Below the pieces are notes generated by a model. It saw nothing but the letters and a program-made list of their open reading frames with translations, was not told the origin of the DNA and ran no database searches. The position numbers and the translations under genes are program-made. DNA of 48,343 nt from Deltaproteobacteria bacterium (GTDB lineage: Bacteria; Desulfobacterota; Binatia; Binatales; Binataceae): contig JAKBMB010000005.1 of NCBI GenBank assembly GCA_021831785.1, forward strand, positions 1 to 48,343, read 5' to 3'. Shown piece after piece: positions 13,024 to 48,343 of this stretch (its first letter is position 1; every line of letters begins with the position of its first letter).

Positions 13024-13099
<76 letters not shown>

Positions 13100-15809: not shown

Positions 15810-15945
15810 GTGCCCACCCGGTCGCCGTGATTCATTGGCCGCGCGGGCGTGGCGCCCACGCATCATGGCGGGCATTCTTCGGCTTCGCTCAGAACAGGCT
15901 CCGGCCCGCCCCACTGGGCCAAAATTCACAAACTCTCAGGATGAC
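15810..15945 (-). repeat. Interspersed inverted-repeat element, copy C (reversed)
   Basis: Reverse complement matches copy B: AGTGGGGCGGGCC terminus, GAGCCTGTTCTGAGCGAAGCC, the ATGATGCG palindrome and CCAATGAATCAC. The flank 'aaaattcacaaactctcaggatgac' matches the flank of copy A. Its distal end is degraded. The next 90 bases before the ATPase gene are AT-rich and may hold its promoter. Confidence 0.7.
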
Positions 15946-38647: not shown

Positions 38648-38722
38648 GTCCCCGTCGTCTAGCTCGGCCTAGGACACCGGCCTTTCACGCCGGTAACACG
38701 GGTTCAAATCCCGTCGGGGACG
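38648..38722 (+). tRNA. tRNA-Glu (TTC), CCA not encoded
   Basis: Acceptor GTCCCCG/CGGGGAC, anticodon stem CCGGC/GCCGG around loop CTTTCAC (anticodon TTC), T-arm ACGGG-TTCAAAT-CCCGT, discriminator G. CCA does not follow. Confidence 0.96.
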
Positions 38723-38852
38723 CGGACGAAAAAAGCGTTGTATTTGCTAGGGCTGGTGGCCGTTGAGGTCTCCCGCAGCGCGTCCCCGATAGGTGGTTTG
38801 ACAGCCACGACGCCTAAAAACTGCCCGTTTTGTCGGTTTTCCCCCCTGCTGA

Positions 38853-38966
38853 GCACCTGCGGGCGAGCTCAAACCAGTCATCCAGACTGCGTACATTACC
38901 GGATGGCGGATCGCGTCCGAAATCCTGACCCGGCAAAAGCATCACGTTAATCTGGAAAGCGCCGAT
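38853..38966 (+). pseudogene. Tyrosine-recombinase (phage integrase) fragment
   Basis: After a TGA at 38850 the frame reads ELKPVIQTAYITGWRIASEILTRQKHHVNLES, the box-1 region of tyrosine integrases with the catalytic Arg in TGWR. The rest of the catalytic domain (H-x-x-R, Tyr) is not found; the frame stays open to 39198 but continues as sequence I do not recognise. It is a remnant of a mobile-element integrase between tRNA-Glu and the tRNA-Leu fragment. From 39199 to 39431 nothing else is visible. Confidence 0.6.
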
Positions 38967-39431
38967 TATGCCGTAAACGGTCAGATCCGCGTCACCGACG
39001 AGGTCTTTCTAGGGGATGTCATGGTTTTGCGACGGTCATCCGAACGGCATCTCAAGAAAGGTGATGCGACCAACCGGGCGAACGCTGCGCGAGTCTACTT
39101 GGATACGATCGAGCATGGGGGACGACGCTTCGTGGCGGTGTTATACTGTGGACCGCGCCCGACGACAAACTTCGACGCCCGGGTAAATCTTCCGATATGA
39201 TTCTGATCCATTCGCTGCGCCGGCATCACTTGCGCGCCCTCTCTTTGAGCCGCCGATCCTCCCGGCCCCATAGCATTCGAGCGGTCAGGGGACTCACCCA
39301 GCGGGAGCGAATTGCTTCGACGATTCCAGAGAACAGCCAAAGTTGAGCCAAAGTCGGCCGCGATCTCCGCGCGGGGGGTGACAGCCAAAGCCGTTCGCGC
39401 TGGCAGGCGCGGCACTGTCGCGGGGGTTTTA

Positions 39432-39489
39432 TGGTGCCGAGGGCGGGACTTGAACCCGCATGTGGTTGCCCACGGAGGATTTTGAGTCC
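39432..39489 (-). other. 3' half of tRNA-Leu (CAA): attachment-site remnant
   Basis: Reading the minus strand: GGACTCAAAATCCT (anticodon arm, CAA), a class II variable arm GTGG-GCAA-CCAC, T-arm GCGGG-TTCAAGT-CCCGC, acceptor strand CCTCGGC, discriminator A and CCA. The 5' half (GCCGAGG acceptor strand and D-arm) is absent. A 3'-half copy is the usual product of integration into a tRNA gene; its polarity puts the element on the right (higher coordinates) and chromosome on the left. Confidence 0.8.
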
Positions 39490-39750
39490 CATTTTCGGGC
39501 TTTTGAAAAAGTCAGTAAAAATGGGGAGGTTTCGAAAAAGTGCCCGAATTTACTGCGATCTTTGCGAGGCTCCGACTGCCCACAATTGACCTCTTTTGCC
39601 CCGCTCTGTCGATCCGCAGTGTGACAAATTTGTGACAAGCTCCATGATGCGTCGGTTCGCATCGACGGGGCACCGCGCGTCCGCAACTGCTTTCTCTGAT
39701 ATTCGGCCGGGAGCTGACCTGCATACCGGGATGCAGTAGTCTAGAGACGT

Positions 39751-40029
39751 GTGATTCGTTCTTTCGGGGACAAACGGACCGAGGCATTGTTCGGCGATGA
39801 GTTCGTGCGCGACTTTCAAGGCGTGGCGCGGCGTGCGAAGCGCAAACTTGAGGCGCTCAACGCCGCGAGCTGCATTGAGGACTTAAGAGTGCCGCCCTCC
39901 AATCGGCTTGAAAAGCTCAGCGGTCAACTCAAGGATTTTTACTCGATACGAATCAATGACCGGTGGCGCGTAATCTTCAAGTGGCGCTCCGGTGACGCCT
40001 ATGAGGTCAGGATCGTAGACTATCATTAG
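39751..40029 (+). CDS. higB: HigB-type RelE-family toxin
   Basis: A 92-residue RelE/ParE-fold toxin: IRSFGDKRTEALF, RRAKRKLEALNAASCIEDLRVPPSNRLEKLSG, and YSIRINDRWRVIFKW...VRIVDYH, the classic HigB (plasmid-maintenance killer) pattern. It would cleave mRNA at the ribosome. Start is GTG. It precedes its antitoxin gene, the usual inverted HigBA order, with a 10-bp gap. It is the first gene inside the island boundary. Confidence 0.92.
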   Translation: MIRSFGDKRTEALFGDEFVRDFQGVARRAKRKLEALNAASCIEDLRVPPSNRLEKLSGQLKDFYSIRINDRWRVIFKWRSGDAYEVRIVDYH

Positions 40030-40039
40030 GAGGGAACCG

Positions 40040-40339
40040 ATGAAGAATGAGTTTGCGCCAGTCACACCGGGCGAGATGCTGAAGGAAGAATTTCTTCTCG
40101 AATATGGGCTCTCGCAGAACCAACTCGCCAAGGCGATTGGCATTTCTCCAAATCGGATCGCCGAGATAGTAAACGGGCGACGTCGAATCACTGCCGACAC
40201 GGCTCTGCGCCTGGGACTCTATTTCGGCAATAGTCCGGAGTTCTGGCTAAATCTCCAGACCCACTATGATCTCAAACGAGCGCGCAAGAAGCTGCCGCCA
40301 AAAGCTGTCGCACGCATCAAGGCCCAGCGGGCAGCCTGA
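40040..40339 (+). CDS. higA: HigA-type XRE-family antitoxin
   Basis: A 99-residue helix-turn-helix protein: TPGEMLKEEFLLEYGLSQNQLAKAIGISPNRIAEIVNGRRRITADTALRLGLYFGNSPEFWLNLQ is the VapI/HigA pattern. It should neutralise HigB and repress the operon. AGGAGGG immediately upstream of the ATG (spacing about 5) is a strong ribosome-binding site, stronger than that of higB, as expected for an antitoxin. Confidence 0.93.
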   Translation: MKNEFAPVTPGEMLKEEFLLEYGLSQNQLAKAIGISPNRIAEIVNGRRRITADTALRLGLYFGNSPEFWLNLQTHYDLKRARKKLPPKAVARIKAQRAA

Positions 40340-40467
40340 CCGCCCATTTCTATGTTACCGGCCGCCTCGTCTGGTCGGAGTGACCCAGAACCGGAAAAGT
40401 AGGCCAGGGATAAGTAGAGAGCGCGGCGTCGGATGTGGTCTTCTGGAAGCAGAGAGGAGGACCGGAG

Positions 40468-40734
40468 ATGCCGAAGAAGGGTCACAGCGAGGAGCAGATC
40501 CTGCGTGCGTTGCGGCAGGCTGAAGTGGGCGCGGAAGTAGGTGACATCTGTCGCGAGTTCGGAATCAGCGAGGCGGCCTTTTACATCTGGAAGAAAAAGT
40601 ATTCGGGGTTGGCATTGAGCGAGCTGCGCGAGCTACGGCAGCTGCGGGAGGAGAACGGCAAGCTCAAGCGGCTGGTGGCGGACCTCTCGCTTGACCGGCA
40701 CATCCTGCAGGAGATTGTGCAAAAAAAGCTCTGA
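40468..40734 (+). CDS. IS3-family transposase OrfA (helix-turn-helix subunit)
   Basis: An 88-residue OrfA: KKGHSEEQILRALRQAEVG...VGDICREFGISEAAFYIWKKKYSGL is the HTH_8 domain, followed by a leucine-zipper-like region (LRELRQLREENGKLKRLVADLSLDRHIL). GGAGGACCGGAG precedes the ATG at 40468. The gene ends just after a run of seven A residues (40721-40727), where a -1 slip would join it to OrfB. Confidence 0.9.
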   Translation: MPKKGHSEEQILRALRQAEVGAEVGDICREFGISEAAFYIWKKKYSGLALSELRELRQLREENGKLKRLVADLSLDRHILQEIVQKKL

Positions 40735-40811
40735 GGCCTCGCCAGCGGCGCGAGCTGGGGCGCTGGACCCAGGCGGTCTTCGCTCTGAGTGAGCGCCGAA
40801 CGGCGGGGCTG

Positions 40812-41741
40812 ATGAAAATCACGCGTAAGACTCTGGTCTACCGCAGCCGCCGACCACGGCAAGACGCTTTGCGCCAACGGCTGCGCGAGCTGGCGGCGAG
40901 CCGGGTGCGCTTTGGTTATCGAAGGTTGACGGTGATCCTGAGAAGAGAAGGCTGGCGAGTGAATCCCAAGCGCGTATATCGCCTCTATGCCGAAGATGGG
41001 CTTACGGTGCGCACCAAGACACGCAAGAAACTGGCGCGGCGCCCGCGGGTGGTGACGCCCAAGGCGACGCGGCTCAATCAGAAGTTGAGCATGGACTTCA
41101 TGAGCGCAAAACTCCTTGATGGGCGCTGGTTTCGCGTGCTGACGGTAATCGAGCAGTTCACCCGCGAATGTTTGGCGCTGGCCGCCGGCCGTGCGCTCAA
41201 CGGCCACAAGGTCGCGCTGGCACTTTCTCAGGTCGTAGCCGAGCGCGGTGCACCGGAATCAATTACGGTCGACAATGGGAGCGAATTTGCTGGTCGGGCA
41301 ATGCAAGCGTGGTCATATCAACACGGCGTACGGCTGGAGTTCATTCGGCCGGGAAGACCGGTCGAAAATGGCTATATCGAATCCTTCAACGGACGTTTGC
41401 GCGATGAGTGCCTGAACGTCGAAACCTTCTTCGACTTGGCCGACGTCCGCGACCAGCTCGAGCGCTGGCGGCAGGACTACAACCAGGTCAGGCCGCACAG
41501 CGCATTGGCCGCTCGCGCTCCGGAAGAGTTTGCGCGCGCCTGGCAACAATCGAGCGCGACATCGCTGCGCACGGCTTGGCCGGCAAACCAATTGCCGTCC
41601 GGCGCCGTGCAGAGCAGCGCTGCCGCGGATCCAAAATCTGAAAGCTTTTCGCCCCACCCTTATGCAAGTGTGAAGGGTGAGGGGGCGAAAAGCTGGTCAA
41701 AGACAGGGCAGAAAAGGAAGTGCCCATCAGCCAGTTGTTAG
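40812..41741 (+). CDS. IS3-family transposase OrfB (DDE catalytic subunit)
   Basis: A 309-residue rve-type transposase. DDE residues appear in LSMDFMSA, TVDNGSEF and NGYIESFNGRLRDECLN. The OrfB frame is open back to the A7 run (KALRPRQRRELGRWTQAVFALSERR), so the active product is probably an OrfAB fusion made by -1 frameshifting, the known IS3 mechanism. The C-terminal 40 or so residues are encoded over a large hairpin (41643-41694) and look non-native, so the natural stop may have been altered. Confidence 0.88.
   Translation: MKITRKTLVYRSRRPRQDALRQRLRELAASRVRFGYRRLTVILRREGWRVNPKRVYRLYAEDGLTVRTKTRKKLARRPRVVTPKATRLNQKLSMDFMSAKLLDGRWFRVLTVIEQFTRECLALAAGRALNGHKVALALSQVVAERGAPESITVDNGSEFAGRAMQAWSYQHGVRLEFIRPGRPVENGYIESFNGRLRDECLNVETFFDLADVRDQLERWRQDYNQVRPHSALAARAPEEFARAWQQSSATSLRTAWPANQLPSGAVQSSAAADPKSESFSPHPYASVKGEGAKSWSKTGQKRKCPSASC
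41643..41694. repeat. Long inverted repeat at the OrfB 3' end
   Basis: AGCTTTTCGCCCC (41643-41655) pairs perfectly with GGGGCGAAAAGCT (41682-41694), extended inward by ACCCTT/AAGGGT. It could be a repeat captured by, or the terminator of, the insertion sequence. Confidence 0.55.
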
Positions 41742-41763
41742 AGGTTGTCAATCGAGTCTGTAG

Positions 41764-42237
41764 AGTGCAATAAACGCCGGAAATACCGGCACCAACCGAC
41801 CACACCACGCCGAAATCTCTATTGCCGGTCGGCTCACTTTCGCGGGGCAGGTCACACAGGCGACGGACTCTACCTCAAATTGGCCGAGTTTTCGGGGGGC
41901 AGGCCAGGATGTCAAACGCAAGTTCGTCGAATCCGCATCTGAGTGGTCGCAAGGGTGGGATGACGACGATCCCGAGTGGCTGCGAGAGGTTGCTGGCGAT
42001 CTGGACAGCGTTGCCGAAAAATTCGAAGTGGACGCGAAGCGCTTGACGAGTCCCTTGCGTGAGAGAGCGGACGAAATTGAGGCTGAAAGAGCCGAGAACG
42101 AGCCGGAGGACGATCGGGACGATCGCGACGATTGGGAGCCGTCGTCTTACCGAGACGACGTGGACGATATGTTTCAAAATCTGCGAGAAGATCTCGAAAG
42201 TCAGCCGGAAGGCGAATTTCACGGGAACCGGACCTGA
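41764..42237 (+). pseudogene. 5'-truncated acidic protein fragment beside the IS
   Basis: One frame stays open from the TAG at 41761 to the TGA at 42237 but has no ATG, GTG or TTG before GTG 42028. It encodes coding-like sequence (DVKRKFVESASEWSQGWDDDDPEWLREVAGDLDSVAEKF) and ends in an Asp/Glu/Arg-rich tail (EPEDDRDDRDDWEPSS). I recognise no family. The IS at its 5' side probably removed the start. The GTG at 42028 would give a 69-residue peptide without a ribosome-binding site. Confidence 0.45.
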
Positions 42238-42258
42238 ATTTGGCGTGTCCGGCGCTCA

Positions 42259-42876
42259 TCAGGGGCGGGGCTGCAGAGCGGCGTGTCTTTGGCGGAAGGC
42301 GGCCAGCTTCATCCGGTTGCCGCAGGTCTTCATGCTGCACCAGCGGCGCTGCCGGTTCCTGGCGATCTCAAGGAAGAAGAGCCCGCAAGTCGGATTTGCG
42401 CAGCGCTTGATGCGGTTCAGTTCCCGGTTGCAAAGCAGCTCGGTTGCCGACTCGGCGATCGGCGCCAGCAATTGGCTTGGCTGATCCGGTCGCCGGCGAA
42501 ATTCCTGGGCGAAACCGCTTTTGGTTCGGACTAGCTCAGAACGGCCCGCGCGCGCGGAGAGGTATCTGTTTATCGCGGCGATCGCGTGTTCGGGTACGCT
42601 TCGCCCGGCGATGACCCGTTCAAGCACGGCGAGCAGGTGCTGGCGGAAGATTAGCGCGTCTCGGTAGATCTGTTGCGCTTCAGGTCTGCCAGCCCATCGG
42701 CTGGCTGCATCATTTAGCTCCGCTCTTGAAAGCAGCCGGGCCTCGGATAGCCATTCCAGCAAATCGTCGAAGTTATGAAGCGCTTCGGCCCGGTCGGCGC
42801 CGGGAGCGGTGTTCACGAAGTCGAGGCATGGATGTGCCCCGAGAAAAGTGAAGTGTTCGGTTCTTGCGCGCGCCAT
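42259..42876 (-). CDS. CGNR zinc-finger protein (ABATE/DUF1470 type)
   Basis: A 205-residue protein. The N-terminal ABATE-type domain (FTFLGAHPCLDFVNT ... LLEWLSEARLLS) is followed by a C-terminal treble-clef CGNR finger: CANPTCGLFFLEIARNRQRRWCSMKTCGNRMK, with the four cysteines C-x4-C-x15-C-x4-C and the CGNR signature. Such proteins are stress-linked transcriptional regulators. I start at ATG 42876 (GGAGA just upstream) because the family begins at this point; the frame is open further without homology. Divergent from the sigma-54 activator remnant. Confidence 0.85.
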   Translation of the reverse strand: MARARTEHFTFLGAHPCLDFVNTAPGADRAEALHNFDDLLEWLSEARLLSRAELNDAASRWAGRPEAQQIYRDALIFRQHLLAVLERVIAGRSVPEHAIAAINRYLSARAGRSELVRTKSGFAQEFRRRPDQPSQLLAPIAESATELLCNRELNRIKRCANPTCGLFFLEIARNRQRRWCSMKTCGNRMKLAAFRQRHAALQPRP

Positions 42877-43014
42877 CGGTCTCCATCGATGGCAAGAAGC
42901 AAAAATTCTTCCGAAAACAGACGCTCGGTTGTTGACAGGTTGCGGCGAAATATCCGAGAGTCTCATCAATCCTGAGCAGACAGCGCGGCGGGGGGTGTCT
43001 GATGCGAGCCGGCC

Positions 43015-43626
43015 ATGATTATCGGCACGTCGCTGGAAATACGCCGTGTGCTTCACCTGGTCGAGCAGGTCGCGGCGACGAATGCCCCGGTCCTGATCAC
43101 CGGTGAGAGCGGCACCGGCAAGGAACTGATCGCACGGAGAATTCACGAACTGTCGCCGCTGCGCCATCGGCTTGACGACCTGCCGCCGCTGGCCGAGCAT
43201 TTCATCGAAGAATTCAACCGCGAACACCGCAAGAGCGTACAAGGGCTGGAGCAGGACTTCCTCGACGCGCTCAGAGCACACACCTGGCCCGGCAACATCC
43301 GCGAACTGCGCAACGTCATCCAGCGGGCGGTTATCGTATGCCGGTCGCCCATGCTCTCGCTCCGAGACTTGCCGTTGGAACTGGCTTCGCGCCACGGACT
43401 AGAGAGCAGCTTCACCGTTCGATTGGGCTCGTCAGGGTCCGAAGTCGAGCGCGAGCTTCTCTTCCGGACCGTCGAGTATGTCAGAGGCAACAAGGCTCGC
43501 GCGGCGGATATCCTAGGAATGAGCCGGGGAACTCTCTACAATCGGCTCAAACGGTACGGCCTGCCCGAAACGAACGGGCACGTGAACGGACGCGTATATC
43601 GCAACGGTCGCAATGGACTGACGTGA
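43015..43626 (+). pseudogene. Sigma-54 enhancer-binding protein with internally deleted AAA+ domain
   Basis: A 203-residue product that begins IIGTSLEIRRVLHLVEQVA and has Walker A GESGTGKE (residues 30-37), then jumps near residue 50 to the late AAA+ segment HRLDDLPPLAEHFIEEFN, WPGNIRELRN and a Fis-type helix-turn-helix (ARAADILGMSRGTLYNRLKRYGL). Walker B, the GAFTGA loop and about 110 residues are missing, and no receiver or sensor domain precedes it (in-frame stop 12 bp upstream). It cannot activate sigma-54 polymerase but may still bind DNA. From 43627 to 43941 nothing coding is evident. Confidence 0.8.
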
Positions 43627-43941
43627 TGGCAGGACGGAGCCGCAAGTCGTGCGGTCTCCGCGGTCGGTCGAATTCAAGCACGGGCGCCGATCGATAAGGA
43701 CCGTCATCGCCCCGAATGTTTTCTGGCGACGCGAGCGGTTGAGACAATCGCGGCGGCGTCGCAAGACGCGCGCTGTTTGGGCAACGCATGATGAGGTGTG
43801 ATTGGGTTATTGCGGTGGGCATCGTGATGATCGACGAGCAAGTCCAAGGTGGCGAAACGGGCGCCGGGACTGTGCTGAGGCCATTTCGATTGGCATCGCC
43901 CGAATCCATGGGTACACTCCGGAGCGTCGTGGAGGTGCGAG

Positions 43942-45327
43942 ATGGAACGATCGGTGTCGAGGCGCTGGACGAACAAGTCCGTCCTCTCACTCGCTGGAAC
44001 CCTGGACCCAATAAGCGCAATAGAGCAGCGAGCACGTGACACCGTCCTGAAGGCCCTTGATAGCGGTTGGTCCGGACCGCCGTTCGATCCTATAAAGCTA
44101 GCCGATATCCTGGGTATTGTGGTGCGTCCGCGAGCCGATATCGTGGACGCGAGAACAGTCCCAACGGGACCTACTGAATTCGCCATCGAGTTCAACCCGG
44201 GACAACCGCGGGAGCGGGTCCGATTTTCCATTGCTCACGAGATCGCCCACTCGTTTTTCCCCGATTGCGCCCAAGAAGTTCGCAATCGCGGAGAACACGC
44301 GAACGCACGAAGTGACGACTGGCAGCTTGAAGTCCTTTGTAATATCGCTGCATCTGAACTCGTGATGCCGATCGGCAGCTTCGGAGAGATCGGAGCGAAG
44401 CCGCTCTCATTGGAGAGATTGATGCGCTTGCGGCTTGAGTTTGACGTGTCATCTGAGGCGATTCTGATACGAGCGATCAAGATGACGCACGAGGCCGCCT
44501 TGATGTTCTGCGCCTCCGCTCATTCTCGCCATGAAAGGCCATCATATGCTTTAGACTACTTCATCCCGTCGCGCACTTGGACCTGTGGGCTTCCGGCGGG
44601 CCGGGCAATCGGTGCCGACACAGTGTTAGCTGAGTGTACGGCCATCGGCTACACGTCCCACGGCATCGAGCAGTGGCCCGTGCTCAAAGATCCGTTAGAC
44701 GTGCAGTGCGTGGGACTGCCGCCTTACCCAGGCAGTCGTTTTCCTCGCGTGGCCGGATTCGTGCGGGTCGCCAATGGAGACATGAGCGGCTCGGTCGGAC
44801 CCATAGGTTACGTGGACGGCAACGCGCTTGACCCCAGAGGAACGGGCGTCCGTATGATCTGCCACATAGTCCCAGATCGGTCTTACATTTGGGGCGGTAG
44901 CGGGTTTGCTGCGAACGTCAGGCGGAAATTCCCAAATGTGCAGCAAGACTTCAAAACTTGGGCACAAAGTGGTGGGCGCAAACTACAGCTCGGGAACGTG
45001 CACTTTACTCTCGCGGCAGATTCAATTTGGATTGCGAGCATGATTGCCCAACACGGCTTCGGAGCTTCGGAGACTCCTCGCATCCGTTACGAAGCGCTGG
45101 AGCGTTGCCTCGAACAAGTTGCGGCGAAAGCGTCCGCTGAAAGCGCGTCCGTGCACATGCCGAGGATCGGAACCGGTGCGGCTGGCGGATCCTGGGAACT
45201 TATCGAAGAGCTCGTAGTTGATAAACTATTTAGATCTGGGATCACAGTTACTGTATACGATCTTCCACCGCGAAGCTCGCACTCAATACAGAGTGATTTG
45301 TTCGCGACTCTGAGCAGAGCTCAATAG
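43942..45327 (+). CDS. ImmA/IrrE-type metallopeptidase fused to a macro domain
   Basis: A 461-residue protein. Residues about 45-200 form an ImmA/IrrE (COG2856) zinc peptidase: FSIAHEIAHSFF with H99-E100-x-x-H103 and the distal Glu in AASELVMP (about 139). The C-terminal part (about 285-450) reads as a macro domain of the ALC1/TARG1-like kind: GGSGFAANVRRKFP, WIASMIAQHGFG and VHMPRIGTGAAGGSWELIEELV. Macro domains bind or remove ADP-ribose. GGAGG at 43931-43935 is 6 nt before the ATG. First gene of a tight operon, 11 bp before the next. Known ImmA proteins cleave repressors after DNA damage; the target here is unknown. Confidence 0.8.
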   Translation: MERSVSRRWTNKSVLSLAGTLDPISAIEQRARDTVLKALDSGWSGPPFDPIKLADILGIVVRPRADIVDARTVPTGPTEFAIEFNPGQPRERVRFSIAHEIAHSFFPDCAQEVRNRGEHANARSDDWQLEVLCNIAASELVMPIGSFGEIGAKPLSLERLMRLRLEFDVSSEAILIRAIKMTHEAALMFCASAHSRHERPSYALDYFIPSRTWTCGLPAGRAIGADTVLAECTAIGYTSHGIEQWPVLKDPLDVQCVGLPPYPGSRFPRVAGFVRVANGDMSGSVGPIGYVDGNALDPRGTGVRMICHIVPDRSYIWGGSGFAANVRRKFPNVQQDFKTWAQSGGRKLQLGNVHFTLAADSIWIASMIAQHGFGASETPRIRYEALERCLEQVAAKASAESASVHMPRIGTGAAGGSWELIEELVVDKLFRSGITVTVYDLPPRSSHSIQSDLFATLSRAQ

Positions 45328-45338
45328 TCGGGCACTCG

Positions 45339-46946
45339 GTGTTGGGGGGCAAGATCGTTTTGCTGTCCGGGCCGATTTGCTCGGGAAAATCGACGCTCGC
45401 GGAGCGACTTGTCGACCGCTATAAGGCGACCCTCTGCAAGACACACGAACTGATTCAGACGCTCAAGCCCAGGGTCCCCAACGAGCGCGTCGCGTTACAG
45501 AAAGCCGGCGACGCTCTTGACCGCTCCACAAACGGCAGATGGATCCAAGAGGCGCTGGCGCGTCGCATCGATGGCCAGCCGGCCGAATCGGTCGTAGTTG
45601 TCGATGCGGTTCGGATCACTTCCCAAGTTGATGGCGTCCGCGAAGCGTTTCCTACGCGCGTTTACCATATCCACCTAACGGCCTCCAGCAGTGAACTGGC
45701 TAGACGTTACGCATCACGGAATAGCCAGGTTACCGAAGTCACCTCATATGATCGGGCTCGGGTCAATCGGACCGAACGCAATGTCGAACACTTGACGGCC
45801 ATTGCGGATATCGTTGTAAAAACTGACCAGTGTACGGCCGACGACGTTTTGATCCGTGCGGTGGCACAACTGGGACTTTACCCTCGGACTATTACACGAA
45901 TCGTCGATGTCCTTGTGGGCGGACAATACGGCAGCGAAGGCAAAGGTAACATCGTTGCCCACATTGCGCGCGAATATCAGTATCTTATGCGAGTCGGCGG
46001 CCCGAACGCAGGCCACAAGGTCTTCGGCGATCCTGTCCAGACATTTCATCATCTGCCGTCGGGTACTACTCGATCTGACGCCAAGCTTCTCATAGGCCCG
46101 GGTGCGGTCCTGAGCGTTCCAAGAATCCTTGACGAGATTGCGCAGTTCAAGGTGCCGCACGACAGGTTATCCATCGATCCTTCCGCGATGATCATCAAAC
46201 AACAAGACGTCCGGCGAGAGCAGAAGCGACTTGGAGCGATTGGTTCAACCGCCCAAGGCGTTGGAGAAGCGACTGCGAGGAGGATCAACGACCGCGGTCA
46301 GGTCGACACGAAAGGCAGGCCGCGGGTGGTTCTCGCGAAGGACATGCGCGAATTGAGACCCTTTGTACGCGAAATCGCGCCAATCCTTGAACTTGCTTAT
46401 CTGCGGAATGAGAAAGTGTTGCTTGAGGGAACGCAGGGAACCTCGCTGAGCCTGTATCACGGCTTTTACCCGCACGTGACGTCACGGGACACCACAGTAT
46501 CCGGTTGCCTGGCTGAGGCGGGTATCTCGCCTACTCGTGTCCGCCGTGTCGTCATGGTGTGCCGCACCTATCCGATCAGAGTGGGTGGGACCTCCGGCCC
46601 GATGAGTCAGGAAATCACCGTGGAGGAGATCTCTCGGCGTTCTGGTTTGCCAGTTGAAGAAGTGAAAAACACCGAAATCACTTCAACTACACACAGGCCC
46701 AGACGCATCGCAGAATTCGATTGGATGCAGCTTCGGCGGTCCGCAGTCTTGAACGGCCCAACGGATATTGCGCTCACCTTCGTTGACTATCTGGACGCCC
46801 GAAACCAGAAGGCTCTCAGATTCGAGCAACTAACGCTGGACACTTTGAGGTTCATCGAAGAAGTGGAACGAGTATCGGGAGTACCTGTCACCCTGATTTC
46901 AACGAGATTTCACTGGCGCAACATTATAGATCGGCGGTCCTGGTGA
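45339..46946 (+). CDS. P-loop kinase domain fused to PurZ-like adenylosuccinate synthetase homologue
   Basis: A 535-residue fusion. Residues 1-180: nucleotide-kinase-like fold with Walker A GPICSGKST (11-19) and VVVVDAVR (85-92). Residues 187-535: adenylosuccinate-synthetase fold. The PurA loop GDEGKGK reads GSEGKGN, so catalytic Asp is Ser199; the catalytic His is kept (NAGH, His226). The GTP-selecting TKLD motif reads TFVD (480-483). VTSRDTT, YPIRVGGTSG and STTHRPRR match the phage PurZ style more than PurA. PurZ makes the 2-aminoadenine precursor from dGMP and aspartate. GTG start; the stop overlaps the next gene as GTGA. The substrate is inferred, not shown. Confidence 0.85.
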   Translation: MLGGKIVLLSGPICSGKSTLAERLVDRYKATLCKTHELIQTLKPRVPNERVALQKAGDALDRSTNGRWIQEALARRIDGQPAESVVVVDAVRITSQVDGVREAFPTRVYHIHLTASSSELARRYASRNSQVTEVTSYDRARVNRTERNVEHLTAIADIVVKTDQCTADDVLIRAVAQLGLYPRTITRIVDVLVGGQYGSEGKGNIVAHIAREYQYLMRVGGPNAGHKVFGDPVQTFHHLPSGTTRSDAKLLIGPGAVLSVPRILDEIAQFKVPHDRLSIDPSAMIIKQQDVRREQKRLGAIGSTAQGVGEATARRINDRGQVDTKGRPRVVLAKDMRELRPFVREIAPILELAYLRNEKVLLEGTQGTSLSLYHGFYPHVTSRDTTVSGCLAEAGISPTRVRRVVMVCRTYPIRVGGTSGPMSQEITVEEISRRSGLPVEEVKNTEITSTTHRPRRIAEFDWMQLRRSAVLNGPTDIALTFVDYLDARNQKALRFEQLTLDTLRFIEEVERVSGVPVTLISTRFHWRNIIDRRSW

Positions 46947-47620
46947 ACGCAGAAGAACTGGAGCGGTTGATTTCGCGTCATCCCGTTCTTTTTCATATGG
47001 CTGAGCTCGGAAGCTGGCCCAGCATCCGCAAGCACGGGCTCCTAAGCACGTCAGCGCTGCTGGATCTGTTTGGTTACGCTGGCAGGCAACGTCACGATCT
47101 GGAAGCGAGACGGCGTCCCGAAAGTGTCGCTATCAAGCATTCAACTCATGGGCAGGCGGTTGTCCGTGATCAAAAGCCGATAACGGACGCTGCTCTGGAG
47201 CGGTGCTTACTCGATGGTCTCACGCCATCGGGCTGGTACCGAATGTTAAATGCGAGGGTCTTCTTCTGGCTCACTGAGGAGCGACTGCAGCGGCTACTTA
47301 ATGCCGGTCCATATGCTTCCTCGAATCATGATGTTCTTTCTGTCGAGACGCGCGCGCTGATCGAGAAGTACCGCGAACTGATCACCCTGGCTCCCATAAA
47401 CACAGGAAACACGAGGCCCTACGCGCAACCGCGCGGCCGGGCAACGTTTTCGTCGATCGAGAACTACCCGTATGAGGAGTGGATGGCGAAACGACGCGGC
47501 ATCGACCCTGCCGTAGAATTGGCCGTGATGGGTGGCGTCTCTCAAATTGAGCGGTTTACAATATCCGTAAGAGAGATGCGCGGAAACCAGATTGTTCGCG
47601 TTATCTGGACGCGCCCATAA
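46943..47620 (+). CDS. DUF7002-type protein, possible ADP-ribosyltransferase-like toxin
   Basis: A 225-residue protein. HPVLFHMAELGSWPSIRKHGLLSTSALLDLF opens the domain, followed by RDQKPITDAALERCLLDGLTPSGWYRMLNARVFFWLTEERLQRLL and the TLAPINTGNTRPYAQPRGRATF block, a pattern I associate with DUF7002. The opening (FHMAE-x-GSWPSI-x-x-HGLLS) resembles the NAD-binding start of DarT/DUF4433-type ADP-ribosyltransferases, but I infer this and cannot show catalytic residues. Its GTG start overlaps the preceding stop, so it is made with the other two proteins. The macro domain two genes upstream would be a logical antidote. Confidence 0.65.
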   Translation: MNAEELERLISRHPVLFHMAELGSWPSIRKHGLLSTSALLDLFGYAGRQRHDLEARRRPESVAIKHSTHGQAVVRDQKPITDAALERCLLDGLTPSGWYRMLNARVFFWLTEERLQRLLNAGPYASSNHDVLSVETRALIEKYRELITLAPINTGNTRPYAQPRGRATFSSIENYPYEEWMAKRRGIDPAVELAVMGGVSQIERFTISVREMRGNQIVRVIWTRP

Positions 47621-47742
47621 ATTCTGACACTGCGGCCAGGGAGTGTCCTGGAGCGTGTGGAATTTGGGAGAGCGGTGCGGCCTTGCTGATGCCGATGGGC
47701 GTGAAGGCCGATGCGTCAAGGCGGAAAGAGAATTGATACGAT

Positions 47743-47773
47743 GGCGCGCCCGCGCAACAAGCGCGGGCGCGCC
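47743..47773. terminator. Bidirectional hairpin terminator
   Basis: GGCGCGCCCGCGC (47743-47755) and GCGCGGGCGCGCC (47761-47773) form a perfect 13-bp stem with loop AACAA. On the minus strand the stem is preceded by a T-rich stretch, and on the plus strand it is followed by AAAACTT. It lies between convergent genes and probably serves both; the T-tract criterion is poorly met on the plus strand. Confidence 0.6.
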
Positions 47774-47780
47774 AAAACTT

Positions 47781-48343
47781 CTATTGCTCGCACGATTTGC
47801 GATTGAGTATGAAATCGGCGGCCTTCTGTGCCTGGGCGGCTGCATGGATCAGAAGCTTGCGGTCATCGCGGAGCTTCTTCAGCCATCCAGCCACATACGC
47901 GGCCTGGTTGGTGAGAACCGCGTTAGAGATTCCGGCTTCGGCGCAAAGGAAAGCCGCTCCCATCTCGGCAACCAGTTCCTCTTTGGAATAGACGGGCGAC
48001 CCGAAGGGCGCAGCTTCGCAGATGCCTTCTCGCGCAAGCCGCTTCTCGTGGCCGACGCTGTGGATCAATTCGTGTGTTTCAGTGGCGGCTTCCTCTTCAG
48101 CGCTGATGAATAGCTCGCGCGGCGGAAGCGTAATGCGATCGGTGAGTGGCGAGTAAAACGCTTTCGAGCCTCCGCGTACTATTTCGGGCGGGTTAGGCAT
48201 TCCGGCGATGATCTTTTCGACGGCTTCAATCGGATCGTGATGATGCGTTTGGATCTTCGGAAGCTTGTCGAGAACCGTTTCCGGCAGTTCGCATTGTTCG
48301 AGGTTCCAAACCCGATATAATCTGAGTAGGAATCGACGGCGCG
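47781..48343 (-). CDS. ArdC-like antirestriction protein, C-terminal part (cut by window edge)
   Basis: The minus-strand frame continues open to the right edge. Visible sequence includes RVWNLEQCELP, the end of the ArdC linker (YRVFNVEQ-like), then the zincin-like domain: THELIHSVGHEKRL (HExxHxxGH zinc site) and SKEELVAEMGAAFLCAEAGI, NQAAYVAGWLKKLRDD. ArdC proteins carry an N-terminal ssDNA-binding domain and protect incoming conjugative DNA. The N-terminus lies outside the window; an internal ATG at 48200 is not the true start. Its presence supports a conjugative or integrative origin for the island. Confidence 0.85.
   Translation of the reverse strand, partial: RRRFLLRLYRVWNLEQCELPETVLDKLPKIQTHHHDPIEAVEKIIAGMPNPPEIVRGGSKAFYSPLTDRITLPPRELFISAEEEAATETHELIHSVGHEKRLAREGICEAAPFGSPVYSKEELVAEMGAAFLCAEAGISNAVLTNQAAYVAGWLKKLRDDRKLLIHAAAQAQKAADFILNRKSCEQ

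Follow-up and report, generated by a model that had tools for sequence, protein, structure and literature searches.

The 3' half of a tRNA-Leu(CAA) gene as one border of a probable integrative element in a Binataceae draft genome

In the Islander catalogue, 2083 of 3919 islands are centred on the anticodon, 3760 carry 3' fragments and 159 of the 3919 are of the type that displaces the 5' half (PMC4383910). The 7-bp anticodon loop with its palindromic stem matches the overlap region of the sites used by tyrosine recombinases, according to a review (PMC8371274). The element described here is most probably a new member of this well-known kind, an Islander-type tDNA island.

The window analysed, 48,343 nucleotides long, takes in contig C5 of the draft genome G000 from end to end (34 contigs, 3.68 Mb, 96% complete); other G numbers, such as G001 and G015, label related genomes. 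The nearest named relatives of the FtsA encoded in the window, at 69-72% identity, belong to the metagenome-assembled Deltaproteobacteria YP3.bin70, FK5.bin86 and palsa_1115. Cell-division genes (named by eye from the open reading frames, ftsZ being confirmed by search), a gene for an MPN-type protein and tRNA-Glu lie to the left of the tRNA-Leu fragment. For comparison, 41 genomes of the family were searched for tRNA-Leu(CAA); 37 gave a match, and the set compared comprises 35 full-length genes from 34 genomes, G000 included. For a bacterial family that has been little studied, the result gives the position of one mobile-element border to the base.

Table 1. Features of the locus (contig C5 unless another contig is given)
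Feature	Location	Strand	Basis or remark
tRNA-Glu(UUC), next gene left of the fragment	38648..38723	+	ARAGORN
Stretch from tRNA-Glu to the flank of the fragment, possibly debris	38724..39313	.	TGWRIASEIL peptide; TTGACAGCCA at 38798
Probable flank behind the original gene; three ACTTTGGCTG-type direct repeats	39314..39431	-	Smith-Waterman scores, repeats, identities
3' half of tRNA-Leu(CAA), no 5' half	39432..39489	-	58/58 nt as in the 3' half of 5/35 genes compared
16-bp core GGACTCAAAATCCTCC, anticodon arm, presumed crossover region	39474..39489	-	identity before the halves diverge
Probable left part of the integrated element, continuing off the contig	39490..48343	.	between fragment and contig end; polarity
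Arm-type repeat TTGTCACAAATTTGTCACACTG, 22 bp	39617..39638	-	once in window, expected 0.00
HigB-like toxin	39751..40029	+	PF05015, E 4.9e-20
HigA-like antitoxin, HTH_3	40040..40339	+	E 1.1e-12
Transposase, presumably IS3-type, two ORFs	40435..41741	+	40435-40734 HTH_Tnp_1 PF01527 E 6.8e-17; 40812-41741 rve PF13683, PF00665
ORF with ABATE and CGNR zinc finger in C-terminal half	42259..43395	-	Pfam
M78 (IrrE-like) peptidase and Macro domain protein	43942..45327	+	PF06114, PF01661; CapP profile E 1.2e-20
P-loop kinase-adenylosuccinate synthetase fusion	45339..46946	+	PF00709 E 2.6e-56, AAA_33 E 7.6e-08
DUF7002 protein	46943..47620	+	PF22531, E 3.9e-68
ArdC-type C-terminal part (MPTase-PolyVal), cut by contig end	47781..48341	-	PF18818, E 8.9e-34
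Intact tRNA-Leu(CAA), sole one found in G000	C24 16020-16105	-	match to fragment, anticodon call
Tyrosine integrase, Phage_integrase PF00589	C24 14949-15950		E 3.6e-28, 98.9 bits
tRNA-Leu(TAG) of the second island (L241, G000:C15:52500-70100)	C15 68572-68655		tRNA-Leu match
tRNA-Leu(TAG) 3' half, 56 nt	C15 54046-54101	as gene	identical to gene
Integrase piece beside tRNA-Leu(TAG)	C15 67631-67789

The isolated 3' half and its partner on a second contig

The original prediction held that a 58-nt piece of tRNA-Leu, from the anticodon arm to CCA, is preserved without the 5' half. This was confirmed, on the minus strand. Read from 39489 to 39432, the fragment opens with GGACTCAAAATCCTCC and continues through the variable arm, the T arm and the acceptor strand to the CCA end. 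Its start, GGACTCAAAATCC, is the anticodon stem and loop with the anticodon CAA, and each of its 58 nt agrees with positions 29-86 of the query, which was the gene in its family form. Neither ARAGORN nor Rfam at the gathering threshold called the fragment, as expected for half a gene; at a relaxed threshold, cmscan aligned the anticodon arm and the T arm with 18.4 bits (E 0.4) against a cut-off of 29 bits. The fragment and the intact gene on contig C24 are 91% identical over 58 nt (E 2.2e-17), and this match, together with the identity to positions 29-86 of the family gene, excludes a chance resemblance to tRNA-Leu. Two minus-strand ORFs that overlie the fragment (85 and 88 aa) had no Pfam match at E 1. 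Eight places in the genome match tRNA-Leu(CAA): the intact gene, the half in the window, three intact leucine genes with other anticodons, the tRNA-Leu(TAG) 3' half at 54046 of C15 and two short, weak matches. The other full-length leucine genes matched in G000 have the anticodons CAG, GAG, TAG and TAA.

The intact tRNA-Leu(CAA) with an adjacent integrase that had been predicted beyond the right edge exists, and in the predicted orientation, but it stands on a separate contig, C24, because C5 ends 8.9 kb to the right of the fragment. The integrase ORF starts about 70 bp beyond the CCA of this gene. The missing 5' side of the fragment points right on C5 and the 3' side of the tRNA points left on C24, so that the right end of C5 and the left end of C24 face each other. 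Both tRNA sequences are on the minus strand of their contigs and would have the same orientation if the right end of C5 leads to the left end of C24. So joined, the element would comprise at least 8.9 kb of C5 and 16.1 kb of C24, with a gap between them. The forecast that the two 3' halves would be identical failed: they differ at 5 of 58 positions.

The halves are identical over the core, which consists of the 7-base anticodon loop with flanking stem and has its counterpart at C24 16062-16077, within the intact gene. The window holds one exact copy of the core, and a copy with two mismatches lies in tRNA-Phe at 13052. Close to the core, on the element's side, is the repeat TTGTCACAAATTTGTCACACTG, in which TTGTCACA occurs twice in direct orientation at a spacing of 11 bp. 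Its counterpart on C24, with one mismatch, is at 15921-15942 on the minus strand and occurs once in the first 20 kb of that contig (expected 0.00). The distance from repeat to core is 127 bp on C5, inside the element, and 119 bp on C24. In a circular form of the element, copies of TTGTCACAAATTTGTCACACTG would stand on both sides of the core, as integrase arm sites do, and the C24 integrase may bind these putative arm sites of the TTGTCACA type. Elsewhere, the repeat pattern (two substitutions and spacers of 1-4 allowed) gave one imperfect match, at L158 of G010, among 33 stretches scanned.

The following history would account for these observations. An integrative element with a tyrosine integrase would have entered the tRNA-Leu(CAA) gene by recombination in the anticodon arm. 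The attP of the element would have carried a tRNA-Leu 3' half, leaving the gene whole as a host 5' half with a donated 3' half, the present gene on C24, and the host's own 3' half would have been displaced with its downstream flank (39314-39489) to the far end of the element. The element would extend from 39490 rightward off C5 and, beyond a gap in the assembly, resume at the left end of C24 and close there with an HTH protein and the integrase, followed by the tRNA. We consider it highly probable that a single integrative element displaced the host 3' half and that C5 and C24 are joined through it. Reading the fragment as an island border is supported by the gene and integrase on C24 and by the uninterrupted form of the joined site in relatives, described below.

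A rather unlikely variant of this history is that C5 and C24 are the outer ends of at least two elements stacked in one tRNA gene, the fragment in the window belonging to the outermost alone and more fragments being expected in the gap between the contigs. Several attempts to bridge the two contigs failed, which leaves room for it. The only piece of HmaC found covers 58 positions and lies inside C1, and the only ArdC N-terminal domain is part of a separate, complete ORF on C25, 6.5 kb from that contig's end, whose product shares stretches 60-67% similar with the ArdC end in the window. The ends of C5 and C24 matched nothing in the last 11 kb of C25 by blastn, and only the ArdC similarity and weak matches by tblastx. 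Stacking would also agree with the repeated targeting of tRNA-Leu(CAA) in the family, where many genomes hold isolated 3' pieces, and with a flank left of the fragment that resembles the arm region of an older element. What argues against it is that each end contains the same 22-bp repeat, the two distances to the core being nearly equal, as if derived from one attP, and that the G000 assembly contains no second 3' half of tRNA-Leu(CAA).

Two further explanations were weighed. That C5 is chimeric around 38.7-39.5 kb, through an assembly or binning artefact, is very improbable: G000 is a draft in 34 contigs with a gene order unlike that of sister genomes, but flank, fragment, core and arm repeat form one att structure across the supposed join. 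It is scarcely credible that the fragment is a decayed tRNA pseudogene produced by duplication and not by integration. Relatives do contain several isolated tRNA-Leu pieces, and one of them has nearly the C24 form of the gene with no integrase detected; yet the fragment starts in the anticodon arm, stops exactly at CCA and keeps a flank that is found behind intact genes, and an intact gene with an integrase and a matching repeat exists.

The original 3' half and the uninterrupted site

Over its 58 nt the fragment is identical to 5 of the 35 genes, and differs at no more than one position from 15 and at no more than two from 25. Four of the five positions that distinguish it from the C24 gene are two base-pair swaps in the variable stem, and one is in the T loop. 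The stem-loop GTGGG(C/T)AACCAC occurs in 27 of the 35 genes, and the T-loop G of the C24 gene is absent from all the others. When the C24 5' half through the core is joined to the 3' half in the window, the product is identical to the G012 gene at 86 of 86 positions; against seven genomes tested it has 0 to 4 mismatches (1 to 4 for the six other than G012). The present C24 gene is 94% identical to that of G012. One relative speaks against taking the fragment as the original form: G051, of another genus, has an uninterrupted gene with the C24 variable stem, whose 3' half is 1 of 58 positions off the C24 half, and no integrase was detected within 2.2 kb of it, so a C24-like stem can exist apart from this element.

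The 120 bp beyond the CCA of the fragment were set against 34 flanks of intact genes, that of the C24 gene among them. Smith-Waterman scores were 68-107 for five of the 34, G003, G011, G012, G022 and G051, the largest among 200 mononucleotide shuffles for each being 33-38; for each of the remaining 29 flanks, 3 or more of the 200 shuffles scored as high, with the best 10 of the 34 listed. Global alignment gave 76/113 to 88/114 identities for the five, against 72-74 identical positions in the largest shuffle; G011 is marginal (76 against 73), and the flanks of G002 and G010 did not exceed their shuffles. In these five genomes the tRNA gene continues directly into the flank, which in the window is joined to the displaced half. 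Comparison with related genomes had been proposed as a check; it was made for the att site rather than for neighbouring genes, and on that basis an uninterrupted version of the joined site is present in relatives. The 3' pieces of G001 (C9) and G012 (C41) are not followed by this flank, that of G012 having one marginal match, to G002.

The identity to five of the 35 genes and a left flank like those of uninterrupted genes suggest that the host's original 3' end is most likely preserved in the fragment, the C24 gene carrying a half donated by the element. This direction depends on the flank, the model and these five relatives. Within a genus the flank may be present or absent: of two genomes of one genus, G051 has it and G014 lacks it. 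This patchiness and the ACTTTGGCTG-type repeats raise the possibility that the flank is the arm region or end of an older integrated element. What ends at position 39432 is therefore this element, and not necessarily the foreign DNA as a whole.

We put forward tentatively, and as less likely than not, the more general idea that integrating elements rewrite the tRNA-Leu(CAA) of the family, each newcomer replacing the 3' half, so that variable arm, T loop and encoded CCA would change horizontally in one step. The variable stem of the G000 gene is new, and one base of its T loop recurs in none of the 34 other genes; the G015 gene has another variable stem and no encoded CCA, and remnants of a related element follow it. 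A general link between non-consensus variable arms and a neighbouring integrase was not supported: an integrase-profile match within 2.2 kb accompanies 1 of the 8 genes whose stem-loop is other than GTGGG(C/T)AACCAC (that of G000) against 2 of the 27 others (G045 and G023), counted with less than 2.2 kb of sequence beside the gene in G012, G050, G023 and G043. The integrase remnants of G015 are seen by tblastn only, not by the integrase profile. A limited literature search yielded no recognised precedent for a chimeric tRNA of this sort, though one may exist.

Gene order around the locus gives a more complicated picture. Relatives with the same genes and no fragment had been named as a finding that would count against the border, and formally G001, a sister species, and G015 are such genomes: both keep the order ftsZ - MPN - tRNA-Glu, and no tRNA-Leu piece was found beside it. 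They are not taken as a refutation because gene order beyond tRNA-Glu is not conserved and because tRNA-Glu is itself an integration site in G001, as is shown by a 48-nt tRNA-Glu 3' piece on another contig of that genome; there, an ORF 28% similar to the C24 integrase follows tRNA-Glu. Since the genes beyond this 3' piece map to C24 123-141 kb in G000, gene order has changed by more than one insertion. When ftsZ, MPN and HAD-UbiA were followed in G001, G009 and G015, no uninterrupted tRNA-Leu was found between the genes that flank it on C5 and C24. G009 has a tRNA-Leu(CAA) 6.6 kb from ftsZ, with no MPN gene, possibly a coincidence. Among ORFs of at least 120 aa taken 3' of tRNA-Leu in G001 (C144) and G015 (C26), only element genes had a partner at E 1e-25 in the window or in C24 1-142 kb, and at E 1e-10 the two sets had no partner in each other. 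Gene order at the locus is rearranged.

The 0.7 kb that separate tRNA-Glu from the fragment are perhaps not plain chromosome but debris of integration. Its TGWRIASEIL peptide is one that we take to resemble an integrase box; the integrase remnant read there by eye is only a suspicion, unconfirmed by Pfam, which gave no match at E 1 between 38724 and 39313. The tRNA-Glu of the window has no encoded CCA, unlike those of G001 and G015, and its 3' end has perhaps also been replaced by an element. An 18-bp match of tRNA-Glu at C24 49976-49993 (E 0.02) was set aside as due to chance; its orientation is wrong for the end of a tRNA-Glu island coming from C5.

Element genes and related islands

The change described to the right of the fragment holds for its genes: a HigBA pair, a transposase and the C-terminal part of an ArdC-type protein are present. 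The Pfam domains of the transposase are rve, HTH_21 and HTH_Tnp_1, and IS3 is the type to which we presume it belongs. The G+C content is lower there as stated, but its fall begins earlier: values are 0.66-0.68 between 28.5 and 36 kb and 0.56-0.61 beyond 39 kb, but 0.60 is reached as early as 37.5-39 kb, and the window also opens with 7.5 kb at 0.59-0.61. Base composition is therefore weak evidence for an island border.

The element carries candidate defence genes. The C24 part encodes an HmaB-like methylase, a 711-aa protein with no Pfam match, an HmaA-like helicase, an AAA protein, a Toprim/LPD7 protein and Mob_Pre-like pieces, before the terminal HTH protein and integrase. The methylase ORF (L023 1-1944) contains an in-frame IS200-like (Y1_Tnp) segment with the peptides GTGFQPV and RQDACAT, which are presumably linked to REP-like repeats. 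On C5, in a sigma-54 activator ORF at 43015-43626, the first part of the ATPase is joined to lid and Fis domains, and the core is largely missing. The M78-Macro protein also matches the DarG profile. On plasmids it has relatives in 22 records; those listed (20 of 22) match no more than 36% of its length, namely the Macro part. They are from Streptomyces, Deinococcus, Bacillus and Nocardia, and none is in the records that hold the kinase-synthetase fusion. In all eight plasmid records where a relative covers 80% or more of this fusion, a DUF7002 relative is directly adjacent; the records are from Rhizobium, Agrobacterium, Sinorhizobium and Methylobacterium, and Abi-type genes lie within 5 kb in two of the three records inspected. 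Fusion and DUF7002 possibly form an unnamed two-gene module; the literature searched contained no mention of DUF7002, nor, for three of the four terms tried, any link to defence.

G015 carries a related element at the same tRNA gene. Amidase, HAD-UbiA and tRNA-Leu(CAA) are ordered there as on C24, and integrase remnants, relaxase-like and primase-like pieces follow. G001 probably carries one too: one of its contigs breaks off within an integrase 80% identical to that of C24, at what corresponds to a distance of 0.55 kb from the tRNA on C24, and another starts within HAD-UbiA, so that the missing stretch would hold the tRNA. Integrase matches at E 1e-40 occur in 2 of 148 genomes of the class, G000 and G001.

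G000 has a second island of the same build, at tRNA-Leu(TAG) on C15, which serves as an internal control for C5 and C24. Its displaced half starts at gene position 29, as does the C5 fragment, and lies 14.5 kb from the gene, all on one contig. Isolated tRNA-Leu 3' pieces are found in G001, G002, G010, G012, G023, G042, G051 and others; the one at L155 (G001:C9) has a primase-like remnant beside it and, farther out, ORFs that by eye resemble type III CRISPR-Cas. Isolated 5' halves of tRNA-Leu(CAA) also occur, at L158 (G010:C4:39852) and L160 (G011:C145:3388), pointing to the rarer, 5'-half-displacing type of integration.

Comparison with known systems

The element can be set beside three described systems. 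With the Hma defence system (HmaA, HmaB, HmaC; PADLOC models) it shares HmaA (567 bits) and HmaB (158 bits) on its C24 part. It differs in that HmaB is cut by the contig end and contains the IS200-like segment, and in that the search for HmaC gave no full gene, only the piece on C1.

Elements of the class that we take to be named integrative and mobilizable elements with a Mob_Pre-type relaxase are similar in having an integrase, an HTH protein, Mob_Pre-like pieces and a Toprim/LPD7 protein, here within the integrase-proximal 5 kb. Unlike in such elements, Mob_Pre scores 19.0 and 21.3 bits, below the Pfam cut-off of 25.5, in pieces split over two ORFs, and no intact relaxase was found on the C24 part. 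The element could conceivably be mobile at present; because of these low and split scores we make no claim of transfer.

The closest likeness is to the islands of the Islander catalogue. As described in PMC4383910, these also have an intact tDNA, a displaced 3' fragment, an integrase inside the island beside the tDNA and a crossover in the anticodon region. The present element departs from them in the differences between its two halves, in the relatives that indicate which half is ancestral and in having its ends on two contigs. The finding suggests which half of the tRNA is the older and probably connects two contigs of a draft genome; and, as the halves need not match exactly, a search for exact direct repeats would miss an island of this kind.
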